From Polymorphum gilvum SL003B-26A1 (GTDB taxonomy: Bacteria; Pseudomonadota; Alphaproteobacteria; Rhizobiales; Stappiaceae), in assembly GCF_000192745.1 (NCBI RefSeq), contig NC_015259.1, positions 3,983,001 to 4,047,000 on the forward strand: a stretch of DNA of 64,000 bases. Direction: 5' to 3'. Shown here piece by piece: positions 1,621 through 19,311 of the stretch. How positions within the stretch are numbered: position 1 is the first letter of the stretch; every line of letters starts with the position of its first letter. The notes beneath the pieces are model-generated. The model was given only the letters and a program-made list of their open reading frames with translations. It searched no databases and was not told the DNA's origin. The position numbers and the translations under genes are program-made.

Positions 1621-2877
1621 ATGTCGTCCGTCCTGTCCATCGCCGCGCTGCTGACCGGCTCCGCTCTGCTGCTGATGGCGGGCGGGCTGCACGGGCTGCT
1701 TCTGCCGGTGCGCGGGCTGGCGGAGGGCTTCTCCGACGCCTCGCTCGGCCTGCTCGGCGCCGGCTGGGCGGCCGGCTACGTCGCCGGCTGCCTGGCGGTG
1801 CCGGTGATCGTCAAGCGCGTCGGACACATCCGCTCGTTCGGCGTGCTCGCCTCGCTGGCGGCGATCGCCGTTTTGCTCAATCTCCTGTTCATGCGGCCGG
1901 AGGTGTGGATCCCGCTGCGCGCGGTGTCCGGCTTCTGCTTCGCCGGGGCGGCGATGATCGTCGAGAGCTGGCTCAACGAGCGGGCGACCAACCAGACACG
2001 CGGGCGCATCTTCGGCATCTACACGATGATCAACCTGGGCGCGACGACGATCGGGCAGATGCTGCTCACCCTCGGCGACCCGGCCGGCTTCGCCTTCTTC
2101 GTGATCGGTTCGATCATCTATTCGCTGTCGCTGCTGCCGACCGCGCTGTCGACGGCGGCGACGCCGGCGCCGCTGACCCAGGCGCGGCTCGACCTCCGCC
2201 AATTGTGGCGCAACTCGCCGGTGGCGGTGGTCGCGATCCTGCTGGTCGGCGTCTCCAACGGTACGTTCGGCACGCTGGGGGCGGTCTACGGGCGGCGGAT
2301 CGGGCTGGAAGTCAGCGACATCGCGATCATGATGAGCCTGGCGCTGCTGTTCGGGGCGGTTATCCAGGTGCCGGTCGGGCTGATCTCGGACCGGGTCGAC
2401 CGACGCGGCGTGCTGGTCGGCATGGCGGTGGCGGCCATGAGCATCGGCACAACGCTCGCCTTTGCCGGCGGCTTTGGTCCGTGGACAGTGATCATGCTGG
2501 TGTCGGCCTTCGGCGGCATGATCTACTCGATGTATCCGGTGATCCTCGCCCATGCCAGCGACCACGCCGCACCGGGAGATTTCCTCAAGACCAGCGGCGG
2601 GCTGCTGCTGATCTTCGGTGCCGGCACCATGATCGGTCCGCCGGCAGCCTCGCTGCTGATGGCGGCGACCTATCCAGCGGCGCTGTTCCACGTCACGGCG
2701 GCCGCGCATGTGCTGATGGTGGCGTTCACGGTCTGGCGGATGACCCAGCGGCGGCCGGTCGATACCGAGGACAAGTCGGAGTTCGTGCCGGTCATCTCGA
2801 CGGCGCGCTACGCCACCCCGGAATCGGCCGTGCTCGATCCGCGCGCCGAGGAGGCGCAGGAAGAGGACGCGGCCTGA
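1621..2877 (+). CDS. MFS transporter, YcaD/CsbX-like
   Basis: A 418-residue major facilitator with about twelve hydrophobic segments, starting at MSSVLSIAALLTGSALLLMA. The early segments and the RDQ-poor loops resemble the YcaD-type subgroup rather than the nucleoside-specific NupG or NupC families. It ends in a roughly 50-residue hydrophilic, acidic cytoplasmic tail (EEAQEEDAA). The start at 1621 is taken because the first membrane segment begins there; the Shine-Dalgarno sequence is weak. It is divergent from upp across a 263-base gap and convergent with add (8 bases between stops). The substrate is unknown. A role in nucleobase or nucleoside movement is only a neighbourhood guess. Confidence 0.85.
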   Translation: MSSVLSIAALLTGSALLLMAGGLHGLLLPVRGLAEGFSDASLGLLGAGWAAGYVAGCLAVPVIVKRVGHIRSFGVLASLAAIAVLLNLLFMRPEVWIPLRAVSGFCFAGAAMIVESWLNERATNQTRGRIFGIYTMINLGATTIGQMLLTLGDPAGFAFFVIGSIIYSLSLLPTALSTAATPAPLTQARLDLRQLWRNSPVAVVAILLVGVSNGTFGTLGAVYGRRIGLEVSDIAIMMSLALLFGAVIQVPVGLISDRVDRRGVLVGMAVAAMSIGTTLAFAGGFGPWTVIMLVSAFGGMIYSMYPVILAHASDHAAPGDFLKTSGGLLLIFGAGTMIGPPAASLLMAATYPAALFHVTAAAHVLMVAFTVWRMTQRRPVDTEDKSEFVPVISTARYATPESAVLDPRAEEAQEEDAA

Positions 2878-14299: not shown

Positions 14300-15286
14300 T
14301 CAGGCCGACTCCGCCAGTTGCGAACCAACCATCCCGCGGAGCGCCCGTGCCAGGGTCTCGTCCGCGATCAGATCGGTAATGACGCCGGTGCGCAGCGCGG
14401 CAAGCGTCGCTTCAGCCTTGCCTTCCCCGCCTACCAGCGCAATCACGCGTGCGCCGCGCACTTCCTCGAAATGCAGACCGACGGCGCAATCGCCGAGCGG
14501 CACCGGCGCGATGCTGCCGTCGATGGTCAGGAACTTGCCCATGAGATCGCTGACCGCGCCGGCCCGTTTCAGCTCTTCCTGCTCTGCCTTCTTGATCAGG
14601 CCGCGCTGGACGAGATGCCCCTCGTCGTTGATCGAGCCGATGCCGACAACGAACACATCCGACTGGCGCGCGCGTTCCAGAAGGTCCTGGACACTGCGCT
14701 GACCGAGAAACATGTCCCGTTCCTCGAGGTTCTCGGCGAAATAGGGAACCGGCAGATAATAGCCCTCGCCGCCGGTGCGCTCGAGCATGCGCTGGACGAC
14801 GTCATAGGGGTTGGCCGACAGCTTGCGCATCAGCGACCCGGATATCGACATGATCGCCAGATCGGGCCGCATCATGCGCGGCATGGCCTCGACCGAGGCC
14901 TTCAGGGTCCGACCCATGCCGACGCCGACCCGGGTCACGTCCGGTGATGACAGCACGTTGGACAGGAAATTGCCGGCAGCGGCCGCCACGCCCCGGATCG
15001 CCGTGTCCTGATCGCCGCCGCCGAGGTCAGGCGCGATGATGCAGGTGGACAGCCCGAACAGGCGGGCGAACTCATCTTCCAGCTTGAGGCATTCGATCGG
15101 CCGGCCCTCGATCTGGAAGCGTACCAGCCCTTCCTTCTGGGCGTGGGCGATGAGCCGATGCACCTTGGCAGGCGAAACGCCGAGACGGCTGGCGATCTCG
15201 CCCTGCGTGCAGCCGCCCACGAAGGACAGCCACGCGGCCCGTACCGAGAGGTAAGTCGTCCAGTCCTCGTCCTGCACCCGCGCCAC
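14300..15286 (-). CDS. SorC/DeoR-type sugar-binding transcriptional regulator
   Basis: 328 residues. An N-terminal helix-turn-helix (TQGEIASRLGVSPAKVHRLIAHAQ, residues about 28-50) precedes a large SorC/CggR-type sugar-phosphate effector domain (GVGMGRTLKA; VFVVGIGSIND). It is the first gene of the nucleoside operon, so it probably represses that operon and is relieved by deoxyribose- or ribose-phosphate, as for Bacillus DeoR. The start is a GTG at 15284-15286 with a poor SD. A second GTG nine bases downstream is also possible, so the start is uncertain by a few residues. Confidence 0.88.
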   Translation of the reverse strand: MARVQDEDWTTYLSVRAAWLSFVGGCTQGEIASRLGVSPAKVHRLIAHAQKEGLVRFQIEGRPIECLKLEDEFARLFGLSTCIIAPDLGGGDQDTAIRGVAAAAGNFLSNVLSSPDVTRVGVGMGRTLKASVEAMPRMMRPDLAIMSISGSLMRKLSANPYDVVQRMLERTGGEGYYLPVPYFAENLEERDMFLGQRSVQDLLERARQSDVFVVGIGSINDEGHLVQRGLIKKAEQEELKRAGAVSDLMGKFLTIDGSIAPVPLGDCAVGLHFEEVRGARVIALVGGEGKAEATLAALRTGVITDLIADETLARALRGMVGSQLAESA

Positions 15287-15487: not shown

Positions 15488-15524
15488 TGGGCAGGCAGAT
15501 CAACCACTGGGCAATTCCTGCCCA
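15488..15524. promoter_or_regulatory. TGGGCA repeat cluster, candidate upstream activator site
   Basis: TGGGCAGG at 15488-15495 and its exact complement CCTGCCCA at 15517-15524 form an 8-bp inverted repeat. A further TGGGCA lies at 15508-15513. The cluster sits about 130-165 bases upstream of the sigma-54 -24 element, a normal distance for an enhancer-binding protein site. The binding protein is unknown. Confidence 0.4.
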
Positions 15525-15651
15525 TCGAAACGGCGAGAAAACCGACACCCGGCAAAAATTGCCGGGCAAAAATCGACCCAGCCCTGCGCAGGCAAAAGTG
15601 CGCACATTGTGCGCCTTTGATTTGCCGACGAATTTCGAGCCCGGCTGAGTC

Positions 15652-15667
15652 TGGCACGCCTATTGCT
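15652..15667 (+). promoter_or_regulatory. sigma-54 (RpoN) promoter for the DUF1194 genes
   Basis: TGGCACGCCTATTGCT matches the RpoN consensus TGGCACG-N4-TTGCW at every defined position. The invariant GG (15653-15654) and GC (15665-15666) have the obligatory ten-base spacing. Transcription would start near 15678, leaving about 137 bases of leader before the first DUF1194 gene. It implies control by an enhancer-binding activator. Confidence 0.82.
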
Positions 15668-15814
15668 GTGCGACATTCATGCGTCGGCTCATCAAAATCG
15701 TCAGATATCCGCTGTTTTCCCGATGGGTCACGCATCCATCCGGCGCTTAGCCGCAACAACAAAATCGCCCAGGGAGACGTGGATTCTCGGCCTCGGCCTA
15801 ACAAGGAGAAGACC

Positions 15815-16651
15815 ATGCGTCTCAGTGCGTGCACATGCTTCCTCGGGGGCTCTGCCCTTTCGGCCGCAGCGCTGCTGTGCGGCCTCCTCTCGGCCGCTCC
15901 CGCCCTCGCGCGGGATTTCCGGCCGCCATCCGCCTTCAGTTCCCTGTCCCCGGCAACCGAAGTCGACGTGGAACTCGTTCTCGCTGTCGACATTTCGCAA
16001 TCCATGGATACCGACGAACAGGAGGTCCAGCGCGCGGGCTATGTCGCGGCCCTGACATCCGACGAAGTGCTCGACGCGATCCGCTTCGGACCGACCGGCC
16101 GCATCGCCGTCACCTATGTGGAATGGGGTGGCGTCGGCGAGCATTTCACCGTGGCGGACTGGACCCTGATCGAGGACCGGGCGTCGGCCTCCGCCTTCGC
16201 CGCCAGAATCGCCGAAGCGCCCCTGCGCCAGGTGCAGCGGACGTCGATCGTCTCCGCTCTCGACCGGGCGGTCGAGATGATGCGGTCCAATCCCTACCAA
16301 GGCCTGCGCAAGGTGATCGACATTTCCGGCGACGGGCCCAACAACCAGGGCGGCTCGGTGACGGAAATGCGCGACCGGGTACTCGCCGCCGGAATCACGA
16401 TCAACGGCCTGCCGCTGATGATGAAAGCGGAGACCACGGCCTGGCAGGCGATGCTGCACCTCGACCACTATTACGAGGACTGCGTGATCGGCGGGCCGGG
16501 GTCGTTCTCGATACCCGTCCGGTCCAAGGAGTCCTTCGCGGATGCGATCCGGATGAAACTGGTGCTGGAGATTGCCGGCCTGGTGCAGGATCAGCCGAAG
16601 GTCATGCTGGCGTCCTCGCGCCAACCGATCCGCTGCAACCTGTTCGACTGA
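15815..16651 (+). CDS. secreted DUF1194 vWA-like protein, first copy
   Basis: 278 residues with a signal peptide ending near ALA at residues 30-32. The mature domain has the DUF1194 (von Willebrand A-like) fold. The MIDAS motif DISQS is at residues 59-63, and DISGDGPNNQGG further on supplies the second metal-site loop. The start ATG at 15815 has AAGGAG nine bases upstream. It should be periplasmic or exported and bind a divalent metal and a protein or surface ligand; no member has a firm role I can name. It lies under the sigma-54 promoter and is followed by a close paralogue after 141 bases. The C-terminus ends with a single cysteine (RCNLFD). Confidence 0.85.
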   Translation: MRLSACTCFLGGSALSAAALLCGLLSAAPALARDFRPPSAFSSLSPATEVDVELVLAVDISQSMDTDEQEVQRAGYVAALTSDEVLDAIRFGPTGRIAVTYVEWGGVGEHFTVADWTLIEDRASASAFAARIAEAPLRQVQRTSIVSALDRAVEMMRSNPYQGLRKVIDISGDGPNNQGGSVTEMRDRVLAAGITINGLPLMMKAETTAWQAMLHLDHYYEDCVIGGPGSFSIPVRSKESFADAIRMKLVLEIAGLVQDQPKVMLASSRQPIRCNLFD

Positions 16652-16654
16652 CGC

Positions 16655-16709
16655 ACCGGCCCGGCGCCGCCGGTCACGCAATCGCGACTTTGCGTCCGGG
16701 CCGGTTTTC
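16655..16709 (+). terminator. terminator-like nested hairpin between the DUF1194 copies
   Basis: Outer arms ACCGGCCCGG (16655-16664) and CCGGGCCGGT (16696-16705) enclose an inner ACGCAA/TTGCGT stem (16676-16681 and 16690-16695). TTTT follows. Its position directly after the first DUF1194 stop suggests partial or full termination, so the second copy may have its own promoter. Confidence 0.55.
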
Positions 16710-16792
16710 GGCACACTGTCAGACCATCGCGCCGGGCCCGTGCAGGCGGTCCCGGCGCCCCGAAGCGCTCGCGCAGGGAGGTTCGACTGCGC

Positions 16793-17695
16793 ATGCCGTC
16801 TTGCGAACGCAGCCGGGCAGACACCCTCGTCCGCCCATTCGCTCTCTTCGGCCTGCCCGGCCGCGCCGCCGCGGCTGTCGCCGTCGTCCTGGTCGCCATG
16901 CTGGCGCCCGCAGCGCTCGATGGCGCCAAAGCCGACGAAGTCGATGTCGCCATCGTTCTGGCAGTCGACATTTCCTATTCGATGGACGAGGACGAACTTC
17001 GTCTGCAGCGCAGCGGCTATATCGACGCGGTCACCTCGGGCGAGGTGCTGGCGGCCATCCGCGGCGGGCTGGTCGGCCGGATTGCCCTCGCCTATGTGGA
17101 ATGGGCGGGCGCGCTGTCGCAGGCCACCCTGATCGACTGGCACGTCGTCGATGACGCGGCGTCCGCGGAGACCTTCGCCTCGGCCCTGGCCGAAGCGCCG
17201 ATCCGACGCGCCTACCGAACGGCAATCGGCGACGCGTTGCTGTATTCCGCTGCCCAGTTCGAGCGCCTGCCGCACGACGCCATGCGCCGCGTCATCGACA
17301 TTTCGGGCGACGGCCCGAACAATCAGGGCACGCTCGCGCCGCTCGCCCGCGACATGGTCATCAGGGACGGTATCGTCATCAACGGCCTGCCGCTCGTGAT
17401 GAAGGAACGCGGCTACAGCCTGTTCGACATCGTCGACCTCGACCGCTACTACCGCGACTGCGTCACCGGCGGCGCCGGCTCCTTCGTCATCCCGATCCGC
17501 AGCGAGGACGCCTTTGCCGAATCGATCCGCCGCAAGCTGGTGCTGGAGATCGCCGGCGTCGTTCCCGAGGTCGTTCCCGAGGTCGTTCCCGGGGACGAAC
17601 CCGTGCGGATCTGGCGTGCCGCCGACGGCATCGATCCGTTCTGCCTGATCGGCGAGCGGCTATGGCAGCAGCGCATGCGCAACCTGGATCCCTGA
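16793..17695 (+). CDS. secreted DUF1194 vWA-like protein, second copy
   Basis: 300 residues, a paralogue of the gene just upstream. An N-terminal hydrophobic segment (residues about 24-48) serves as signal or anchor. The same MIDAS DISYS is at 59-63, the same DISGDGPNNQG loop follows, and both copies share INGLPL and LDRYYRDCVTGGAGSF. It differs by a C-terminal extension carrying three VVPE/VVPG repeats encoded by a 12-base DNA repeat. The start ATG at 16793 has GGGAGG about 12 bases upstream. The first ~20 residues are basic and may be mis-assigned. Function unknown. Confidence 0.82.
   Translation: MPSCERSRADTLVRPFALFGLPGRAAAAVAVVLVAMLAPAALDGAKADEVDVAIVLAVDISYSMDEDELRLQRSGYIDAVTSGEVLAAIRGGLVGRIALAYVEWAGALSQATLIDWHVVDDAASAETFASALAEAPIRRAYRTAIGDALLYSAAQFERLPHDAMRRVIDISGDGPNNQGTLAPLARDMVIRDGIVINGLPLVMKERGYSLFDIVDLDRYYRDCVTGGAGSFVIPIRSEDAFAESIRRKLVLEIAGVVPEVVPEVVPGDEPVRIWRAADGIDPFCLIGERLWQQRMRNLDP
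17558..17593 (+). repeat. 12-base in-frame tandem repeat (VVPE)
   Basis: Three units of GTCGTTCCCGAG (17558-17569, 17570-17581) with the last ending GGG (17582-17593). They encode VVPE VVPE VVPG near the C-terminus of the second DUF1194 protein. Likely arisen by slippage; the first paralogue lacks it. Confidence 0.9.
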
Positions 17696-17839: not shown

Positions 17840-18268
17840 ATGACGGATCGCCCCGTTCTGGCGCTTGTCGCCCATGACGCCAAGAAGGACGCGATGGTCG
17901 CCTTCGTCCGGCGCAACGCCGAGAAACTGTCGGTCTTCCGCCTGGTGGCGACCGGCACGACGGGCGGGCGCATCCTCGACGCCTGCCCGGAGCTCAACCT
18001 GATGCAGCTGAAGAGCGGCCCGCTCGGTGGCGACCAGCAGATCGGCGCGATGATAGCCGAAGGCAGGCTGGACGGGCTCTTCTTCTTCGCTGACCCGTTG
18101 TCGCCAATGCCGCACGACGTCGACGTCAAGGCGCTGATGCGGCTGGCGCTGGTCTACGACATCCCGATGGCGCTGAACCTGTCGACGGCAGAGATCCTGC
18201 TGCGCTCGGCACGGCTGACCGGGTTGCGGACCACCTCCGCGACCCCGGAAATCAGCGTGCCCCGATGA
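17840..18268 (+). CDS. mgsA: methylglyoxal synthase
   Basis: Converts dihydroxyacetone phosphate to methylglyoxal and phosphate, an overflow bypass of lower glycolysis. 142 residues. Diagnostic features are the N-terminal [16 protein letters not shown] (phosphate binding), [10 protein letters not shown] with the catalytic aspartate, and [15 protein letters not shown] with the active-site histidine and aspartate. The start ATG at 17840 is preferred over the upstream in-frame 17762, because relatives begin near this point and AGGAA precedes it. It overlaps glk by four bases, so methylglyoxal synthesis and glucose phosphorylation are coexpressed. Confidence 0.94.
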
Positions 18269-19311
18269 CGAGCCAGCTTCCCGCTCGTCCGCGTGCCTTC
18301 CGCTTTCCGGTCCTCGTCGCCGACGTCGGCGGAACCAACGTGCGCTTCGCCCTGGTTTCGGACACCCATGCGCGCGCGCAGATGATCGATCCGCGCGAGA
18401 CCGAGGCCTATCCGGACATCGTCGCGGCGATCCGCGACTGCGTTCTCGATACGACCTCGCTCATGCCGCGTACGGCCATCATCGCGGTGGCCGGGCCGGT
18501 GACCGGCGACCGGATCCCGCTGACCAATGCCTCCTGGGTGGTCGAGCCGCTGCGGATGATCGCGGACCTCGGACTGGACGAGGTCGTCGTCCTGAACGAC
18601 TTCGAGGCCCAAGCGCTGGCGCTGCCGGGGCTTGTCGGCGACGACGTGGAGCAGATCGGCGGCGGGTCGCCGCTCGAAGGCGGCTCGAAGTTCGTGCTCG
18701 GTCCTGGCACCGGCCTCGGCGCAGCAGCCATGATCCATGCCGCAGGCACCTGGGTGCCGGTGCCCGGCGAGGGCGGCCATGTCGAACTTGGACCGGTCAG
18801 CGACGAAGACTACCGAGTTTGGCCGCATGTCGAACGGCTGGGCGGACGCATCGGTGCCGAACAGGTCCTGAGCGGCACCGGCCTGCCGCGGCTCGCGCAT
18901 GCCGTGGCGGCGGCGGAAGGCCTGGCGCGAGGCTTCGCGACGGCGGCCGACGTGACCGCTGCGGCAGAACAGGGAGATCCGGTGGCCGCCAAGACTCTGC
19001 AGGTCTTCGCCCGTGCGCTGGGACGGGTGGCAGGCGACTTCGCCCTGACTGTGCTCGCTCGCGGCGGGGTCTACATCGCCGGCGGCGTCTCTGCCTATGT
19101 GGCGTCGTTCCTGAGAACCGGGGAATTCCGCGCCGCGTTCGAGGCCAAAGCGCCGCACGAGGCGCTGGTCAGGGCGATCCCGACCTTCCTGGTCCGCCAC
19201 CCCAATCCTGCGCTGGCGGGTCTGGCCGCCTTTGCGCGCGCGCCGTCCCTGTTCGCGGTCGAAACGGCGGGACGCCGCTGGACAACCGCGGCGGACGGCG
19301 ACACCGCCTGA
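18265..19311 (+). CDS. glk: glucokinase
   Basis: ATP-dependent phosphorylation of glucose at C6. 348 residues, Glk family (E. coli type) rather than [15 protein letters not shown] (phosphate 1) is near residue 19, [10 protein letters not shown] and GPGTGLG (adenosine and phosphate 2) follow, and the sugar-site EGGHVELGP is present. No zinc-binding ROK cysteines are seen. It starts inside the mgsA stop (ATGA). About 15-20 residues of extra C-terminal tail follow the last conserved helix. Confidence 0.94.

Follow-up and report, generated by a model that had tools for sequence, protein, structure and literature searches.

A candidate flagellar-type sigma-54 promoter upstream of a DUF1194 gene in Polymorphum gilvum

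The DUF1194 locus and its first product

The stretch of DNA considered here, referred to below as the window, comprises 64,000 nucleotides of the Polymorphum gilvum SL003B-26A1 genome (contig NC_015259.1, positions 3,983,001 to 4,047,000 of the forward strand), and the locus of interest within it consists of two DUF1194 genes, a sigma-54 -24/-12 element upstream of the first of them, and inverted repeats lying farther upstream (Table 1). The assignment of both open reading frames (ORFs) to DUF1194, made earlier from the sequence alone, is borne out by matches to PF06707 with E values of 2.5e-78 and 8.6e-73, at 262.5 and 244.4 bits against a cut-off of 27.

Table 1. Features of the DUF1194 locus, in window coordinates
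Feature	Position	Strand	Remarks
Divergent SorC-type sugar-binding regulator gene	14300..15286	-	Conserved upstream neighbour; Bmp/ABC importer next
Second, imperfect palindrome copy GGCAATTCCTGCC	15510..15522		Starts 41 bp before the start of the first copy
Palindrome CCCGGCAAAAATTGCCGGG, proposed FlbD (ftr-type) enhancer site	15548..15566		Core GGCAA-N3-TTGCC at 15551-15563
Conserved element GCGCACATTGTGCGC between enhancer and promoter	15600..15614		Conserved in orthologue upstreams
Sigma-54 -24/-12 promoter element	15652..15666	+	Exact match to consensus; conserved in relatives
First DUF1194 gene, 278 aa	15815..16651	+	ATG at 15815; PF06707
Hairpin then UUUU, terminator-like	16652..16722	+	-34.6 kcal/mol, z -3.1; absent from simple terminator scan
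Second DUF1194 gene, 300 aa	16793..17695	+	PF06707
Methylglyoxal synthase-like (MGS-like) gene	17840..18268	+	In-frame ATG at 17840; conserved downstream neighbour
Glucokinase gene	18265..19311	+	Conserved downstream neighbour

The wider arrangement, with ABC-Bmp-SorC genes divergent from DUF1194-MGS-Glk, is complete in 18 of 20 fetched regions, the two incomplete ones being a region without a SorC match and a region cut by a contig end; downstream of DUF1194, 19 of the 20 have MGS-like and glucokinase genes. SorC-type regulators often act on their neighbours, and the conserved arrangement speaks for a sugar-responsive unit under the divergent regulator, in which DUF1194 would be expressed with methylglyoxal synthase and glucokinase and the -24/-12 element would be secondary. 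Against such a unit stand the strong hairpin behind the first DUF1194 gene of the window, the hairpin and T run visible by eye in the same gap in Roseibium L128, and the conservation of the -24/-12 element and the palindromes described below, and we consider it improbable as the main explanation; SorC could also modulate the sigma-54 promoter of DUF1194. The hairpin after the second DUF1194 gene is no stronger than those of shuffled sequences (z -0.6), so that transcription may continue into the MGS gene. Because the first gene is followed by a strong hairpin and a short U run, the promoter probably serves mainly that gene. The sequence-only reading had the promoter driving both DUF1194 proteins, which probably holds for the first and does not extend as readily to the second, lying as it does behind the hairpin.

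The first DUF1194 protein begins with what looks by eye like a signal peptide, and it is predicted to be exported. Its predicted model (mean pLDDT 79) suggests a von Willebrand factor A (vWA)/integrin-I fold: with VIA-align it matched the integrin alpha-2 I-domain 5hj2_C over 193 residues (Z 20.5, rmsd 3.0, identity 11%) and the bacterial vWA protein 4fx5 (Z 20.3, identity 13%), and in a sequence profile search BatB came first of two solved relatives (E 5.6e-5). The metal-ion-dependent adhesion site (MIDAS) is complete, its residues D59, S61, S63, T143 and D169 (DxSxS...T...D) being invariant in 30 sequences. The protein thus resembles integrin I-domain and vWA proteins in its predicted fold and its complete MIDAS, at identities of only 11% and 13%, and differs from those compared in its cysteines, of which Cys223 is invariant and Cys274 nearly so. 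The earlier description of a vWA-like exported protein accordingly agrees with two predictions, the vWA fold and, by eye, the signal-peptide-like start.

That description came with the statement that no role had been described for the family, which needs qualifying, as a 2025 paper ties DUF1194 to type 11 secretion (T11SS) loci (PMC12282271, available text). In marine T11SS loci, adhesion or metal roles were proposed for DUF1194 in the available part of that study (PMC12282271). According to the same text, the cluster 3 DUF1194 proteins share with those described here the Pfam family, signal peptides in most cases, a MIDAS motif and a frequently tandem arrangement; they have different neighbours, with a methylglyoxal-related gene nonetheless present in both settings, namely lactoylglutathione lyase in the T11SS cluster 3 loci and MGS in Polymorphum (PMC12282271). 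A link between DUF1194 and methylglyoxal may deserve testing, given the lactoylglutathione lyase in the published Rhodobacteraceae DUF1194 loci (PMC12282271, available text). The T11SS outer-membrane protein family PF04575 had no match in the Polymorphum genome, and no control genome matched it either. The open-access literature that was searched held no tested DUF1194 function and no paper joining von Willebrand factor, flagellar, sigma-54 and Alphaproteobacteria.

The -24/-12 element and its conservation

The promoter element reads TGGCACG-CCTA-TTGC and is followed by a T at 15667, with its -24 GG and -12 GC 10 bp apart. The sequence-only reading was therefore right that every defined base of the RpoN consensus is matched at the correct -24/-12 spacing, and its distance of 148 bp between 15667 and the first DUF1194 ATG stands as well. 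From this spacing, transcription is predicted to start at about 15677-15679. An RNA element in the predicted leader (15678-15814) was set aside, as nothing in Rfam matched the leader at E values up to 1 and its fold energy is ordinary, not better than shuffles (z -1.2). To the eye, the patches AACAACAAAA, GGGGAGACGTGG and AAGGAGAA of the leader are conserved from genus to genus.

In a pattern scan, exact TGGCACG-N4-TTGC occurs once in the window and five times in the 4.7 Mb genome, against about two matches expected per genome by chance (by arithmetic) and one match to the backwards pattern; by arithmetic, three of the other four exact matches fall within mechanically picked ORFs. The fourth, at G000:C2:286610-286624 (L077 about 2111-2125, minus strand), overlaps the start, as picked mechanically, of an ORF encoding a T2SSE-type (type II/IV secretion) ATPase. 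When up to two mismatches are allowed, the expectation for the window is 27 matches and the observed number is 33, a count reached in 12 of 100 shuffles, and since this number barely exceeds the shuffles, the lone exact match is in itself weak evidence. What makes the element significant is its conservation among the upstream regions of the family.

A search of 61 genomes recovered DUF1194 homologues in 51, counting the Polymorphum genome. For the family scan, 36 of the 37 family genomes each contributed the region upstream of their best homologue, a broken copy in G016 being left out, and the genomes are related, so that the counts given here are not independent of one another. The -24/-12 element was found in 12, 24 and 26 of the 36 upstreams at zero, at most one and at most two mismatches, respectively, where the means over 100 shuffles were 0.01, 0.37 and 2.17 (with a maximum of 6 at up to two mismatches) and the reversed consensus gave 0, 1 and 4. 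Its placement is roughly equivalent in 24 of the 26 element-bearing upstreams, the remaining two, from g5 genomes, having it farther away (-631 and -535). In a second set of 69 named loci, which overlaps the first, the element is present in 41 at up to two mismatches and in 33 at up to one, with a single match to the reversed control at up to one mismatch; the two-mismatch matches at L213, L218, L222 and L225 belong to distant homologues or are oddly placed, and may be due to chance. Roseibium aggregatum IAM 12614 and Stappia stellulata DSM 5886 are among the carriers. The genera represented in the family are Roseibium/Labrenzia, Pannonibacter, Stappia, Breoghania, Hongsoonwoonella and Pseudovibrio, and the element lies at a similar position in Roseibium/Labrenzia, Pannonibacter, Stappia and others.

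The conservation has clear limits. At up to two mismatches, 10 of the 36 family upstreams are without the element (all eight labelled g6 and two labelled g2), none of the 10 named Pseudovibrio loci carries it, and several Roseibium loci are likewise without it. Outside the family, nine upstreams were scanned, seven of them without the element and two with it at two mismatches. The conservation in related genomes that the earlier reading expected is seen in the majority of the family (26 of 36 upstreams, 24 of them with about the same placement), and the absence that it took as refuting applies in part, to the eight g6 upstreams, the 10 named Pseudovibrio loci and several Roseibium.

RpoN itself is encoded by a single PF04552 match in the genome (E 4.8e-69). 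RpoN control of the DUF1194 promoter, as the sequence-only reading had proposed, is well supported by the presence of this gene, the conservation of the element, and an upstream palindrome common to flagellar promoters. Two further candidates for sigma-54 control were set aside: the second DUF1194 gene, for which no -24/-12 element was found in 16500-16800 at up to three mismatches with GG and GC kept, and a third paralogue (C2:3576401), which has only a single three-mismatch site.

Palindromes shared with flagellar promoters

Palindromes of the form GGCAA-N3-TTGCC are common to the aligned family upstreams, and in Polymorphum CCCGGCAAAAATTGCCGGG lies 85 bp upstream of the -24/-12 element. With the palindrome allowed one mismatch, the two signals co-occur in 20 of the 36 family upstreams, the sigma-54 element being alone in six (L019, L021, L035, L143, L139 and L140, out of 26 with the element), the palindrome alone in one, and neither present in nine. 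The corresponding numbers for the 69 named loci are 30 with both, 11 (out of 41 with the element) with sigma-54 only, two with the palindrome only, and 26 with neither; at L207, counted among the 30, the only palindrome lies downstream of the promoter. Geometry was assessed, with palindromes at up to one mismatch, in the 69 named loci together with the Polymorphum upstream, 70 in all. Successive palindromes are spaced by 21/22, 31 or 40/41 bp in 29 of 31 cases, 18 times by 41 bp, and all these distances are near whole helical turns. Measured from the -24, the closest palindrome on the upstream side has its end at a distance of 87-88 bp in 16 of 30 cases, and the palindrome lies about 200-240 bp upstream in Stappia-type loci and about 340 bp upstream in three loci of the Roseibium group.

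Genome-wide, the core GGCAA-N3-TTGCC has 12 occurrences, against two for the reversed control: six within picked ORFs, one at DUF1194, one between convergent genes, and four at flagellar genes. Of these four, one precedes fliK, one precedes fliF and falls in a minus-strand ORF of low GC3 that is taken as spurious, one separates the divergently transcribed flgI and fliX, and one lies immediately before flgB. From this location at flagellar promoters we infer that GGCAA-N3-TTGCC is a putative FlbD site, an assignment made by position.

The alternative that the consensus match is fortuitous, and that the inverted repeats are intergenic transcription terminators, draws on the expectation of about two exact matches where five are seen, on a simple scan that lists both repeats as terminator-like, and on the palindrome copy between two convergent genes. 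We regard it as exceedingly improbable: a chance match was rejected on conservation far above shuffles, on the other controls and on the phasing of the palindromes, and plain terminators were rejected because the palindrome precedes flagellar genes, recurs at helical spacings and co-occurs with the -24/-12 element. The copy between convergent genes, an exact GGCAAAAATTGCC at G000:C2:1689172-1689184 (L083:14172) with the 3' end of a glutaredoxin gene on one side and that of a small ORF on the other, is distant from flagellar genes and is possibly a terminator.

The layout of palindrome and promoter is the same at two flagellar promoters of the same genome, that of fliK, where a -24/-12 element with one mismatch lies 94 bp after a palindrome, and that of flgF, where one with two mismatches lies 83 bp after a one-mismatch palindrome. 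A blind search of 61 genomes with the composite pattern GGCAANNNTTGCC-N66-96-TGGCN7TTGC gave 34 matches in 25 genomes, and none with the reversed pattern; in Polymorphum it found exactly two places, fliK and DUF1194. Hook/fliK promoters account for 22 of the 34 (16 by position only): 17 share the strand of flbD and are located 7.5-8.2 kb upstream of it, with fliK confirmed for the Polymorphum genome only, and five further matches precede FlgE or FliK ORFs. Eight are at DUF1194, the Polymorphum one included, and four are elsewhere, two of them inside MurJ and MnmE ORFs and one near an inositol monophosphatase gene. With 22 hook/fliK and eight DUF1194 matches, DUF1194 is, by this sequence pattern and within the 61-genome sample, the sole recurrent gene outside the hook/fliK class to carry the palindrome together with the -24/-12 element. 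At L068:334-1914, a gene for a Fic/DOC-family protein lies upstream of the fliK-flgD-fliF flagellar cluster.

The regulators that would act at such a promoter are encoded as well. FlbD (NF050807, 828 bits, cut-off 750) is encoded among fliF-fliG-fliH-fliN and flhA, and FliX is present (PF10768). FlbD exceeds the cut-off in 35 of 37 family genomes, including seven of the eight g6 genomes, whose DUF1194 upstreams are without element and palindrome; to judge from the Pseudovibrio sequences, then, the link between promoter and DUF1194 is not universal even where FlbD is retained.

A real sigma-54 promoter might nevertheless answer to NtrC, to another enhancer-binding protein (EBP) or to two activators, with the palindrome bound by something else. 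The genome encodes eight full-size EBPs, seven with GAFTGA, these being FlbD and six others. Moreover, the -24/-12 element is kept without an upstream palindrome in Hongsoonwoonella, Stappia albiluteola, Stappia sediminis and some Roseibium loci, and a conserved element, GCGCAC-N3-GTGCGC in Polymorphum and TGCAC-N3-GTGCG in Roseibium, lies between palindrome and promoter. We consider a different activator unlikely, as four of the five other palindrome copies outside ORFs precede flagellar genes and many genera repeat the layout of palindrome and promoter at hook/fliK promoters. The element GCGCAC-N3-GTGCGC was rejected as the site of a genome-wide regulator (22+22 matches at up to two mismatches against 11 and 19 for the reversed pattern, with none standing out); it is still visible by eye in L020 (R. 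aquae), which is without the -24. CtrA as a general co-regulator was also dismissed, with TTAA-N7-TTAA in only four of 45 upstreams (g5 and g7 only) and five of the 69 named loci. These CtrA-type boxes occur at L035, L143, L139, L140, L157, L160, L204, L207 and L212, which are Hongsoonwoonella-type, Breoghania and two Roseibium/Labrenzia loci, and all nine (some from the same genome twice) are without an FlbD palindrome upstream of the promoter.

A proposed FlbD/FliX-controlled promoter

The explanation that we favour, and hold to be very probably correct, is that the DUF1194 promoter is a late-flagellar promoter of the FlbD/FliX/sigma-54 type, making mRNA for an exported vWA/MIDAS DUF1194 protein at the hook stage. 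It draws on what can be read from the DNA, that is, the promoter, the palindromes, their sharing with flagellar promoters, the conservation, and the genes for RpoN, FlbD and FliX. FlbD/FliX/sigma-54 class III promoters in Caulobacter crescentus include others beyond fliK. In that organism, as far as the available text of the sources goes, FlbD acts through ftr sites, as a repressor of fliF at ftr4 and as an activator of middle genes; FliX passes on information about the state of the export apparatus; and when fliX is deleted, fliF-lacZ rises and fliK-lacZ falls (PMC3930126, PMC7064773, PMC3096577). Both fliF and fliK, targets of FlbD in the available Caulobacter accounts, carry the palindrome in the Polymorphum genome too.

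The DUF1194 promoter resembles this Caulobacter class in its exact -24/-12 element, in palindromes about 85-130 bp upstream, and in the accompanying FlbD, FliX and RpoN genes. It differs from the class in that the gene it drives probably encodes an exported vWA protein and not a flagellar part, in its location beside sugar-metabolism genes and away from the flagellar clusters, and in the extra conserved element.

In mechanistic terms, the promoter would belong to the class that acts as the switch for hook and rod genes in the polar flagella of Caulobacter, thrown once the cell has built the early basal body and the export apparatus. FliX would license FlbD once the early basal body is in place; FlbD would bind the GGCAA-N3-TTGCC palindromes 85-130 bp upstream and reach the RpoN-RNA polymerase at the -24/-12 element by looping of the DNA; and the mRNA would then start near 15678 and, with a leader of about 137 nt, encode the first DUF1194 protein, so that the exported MIDAS protein would be produced together with the hook. 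Judged from these sequence features, FliX may gate DUF1194 transcription and so couple it to the flagellum, and we propose, by analogy with Caulobacter, that the specific signal suggested by the sequence-only reading is flagellar assembly itself, sensed through FliX and FlbD. The DUF1194 protein may be a cell-surface adhesin or a factor associated with the flagellum.

The broader claim, that the FliX/FlbD/sigma-54 hook checkpoint of Stappiaceae also gates a non-flagellar exported, integrin-like DUF1194 protein, is one that we advance tentatively, giving it slightly less than an even chance. If it is true, the construction of the swimmer cell would be coupled to a surface adhesin or a flagellum-associated factor, DUF1194 would gain its first physiological context, and the checkpoint regulon would be shown to extend to a secreted vWA/MIDAS protein. 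The signature, GGCAA-N3-TTGCC followed after 66-96 bp by the -24/-12 element, is short and searchable, and it finds hook promoters in several families of the order. The placement of DUF1194 in the late-flagellar regulon of FlbD would make its role testable with flagellar mutants and with adhesion or motility assays.
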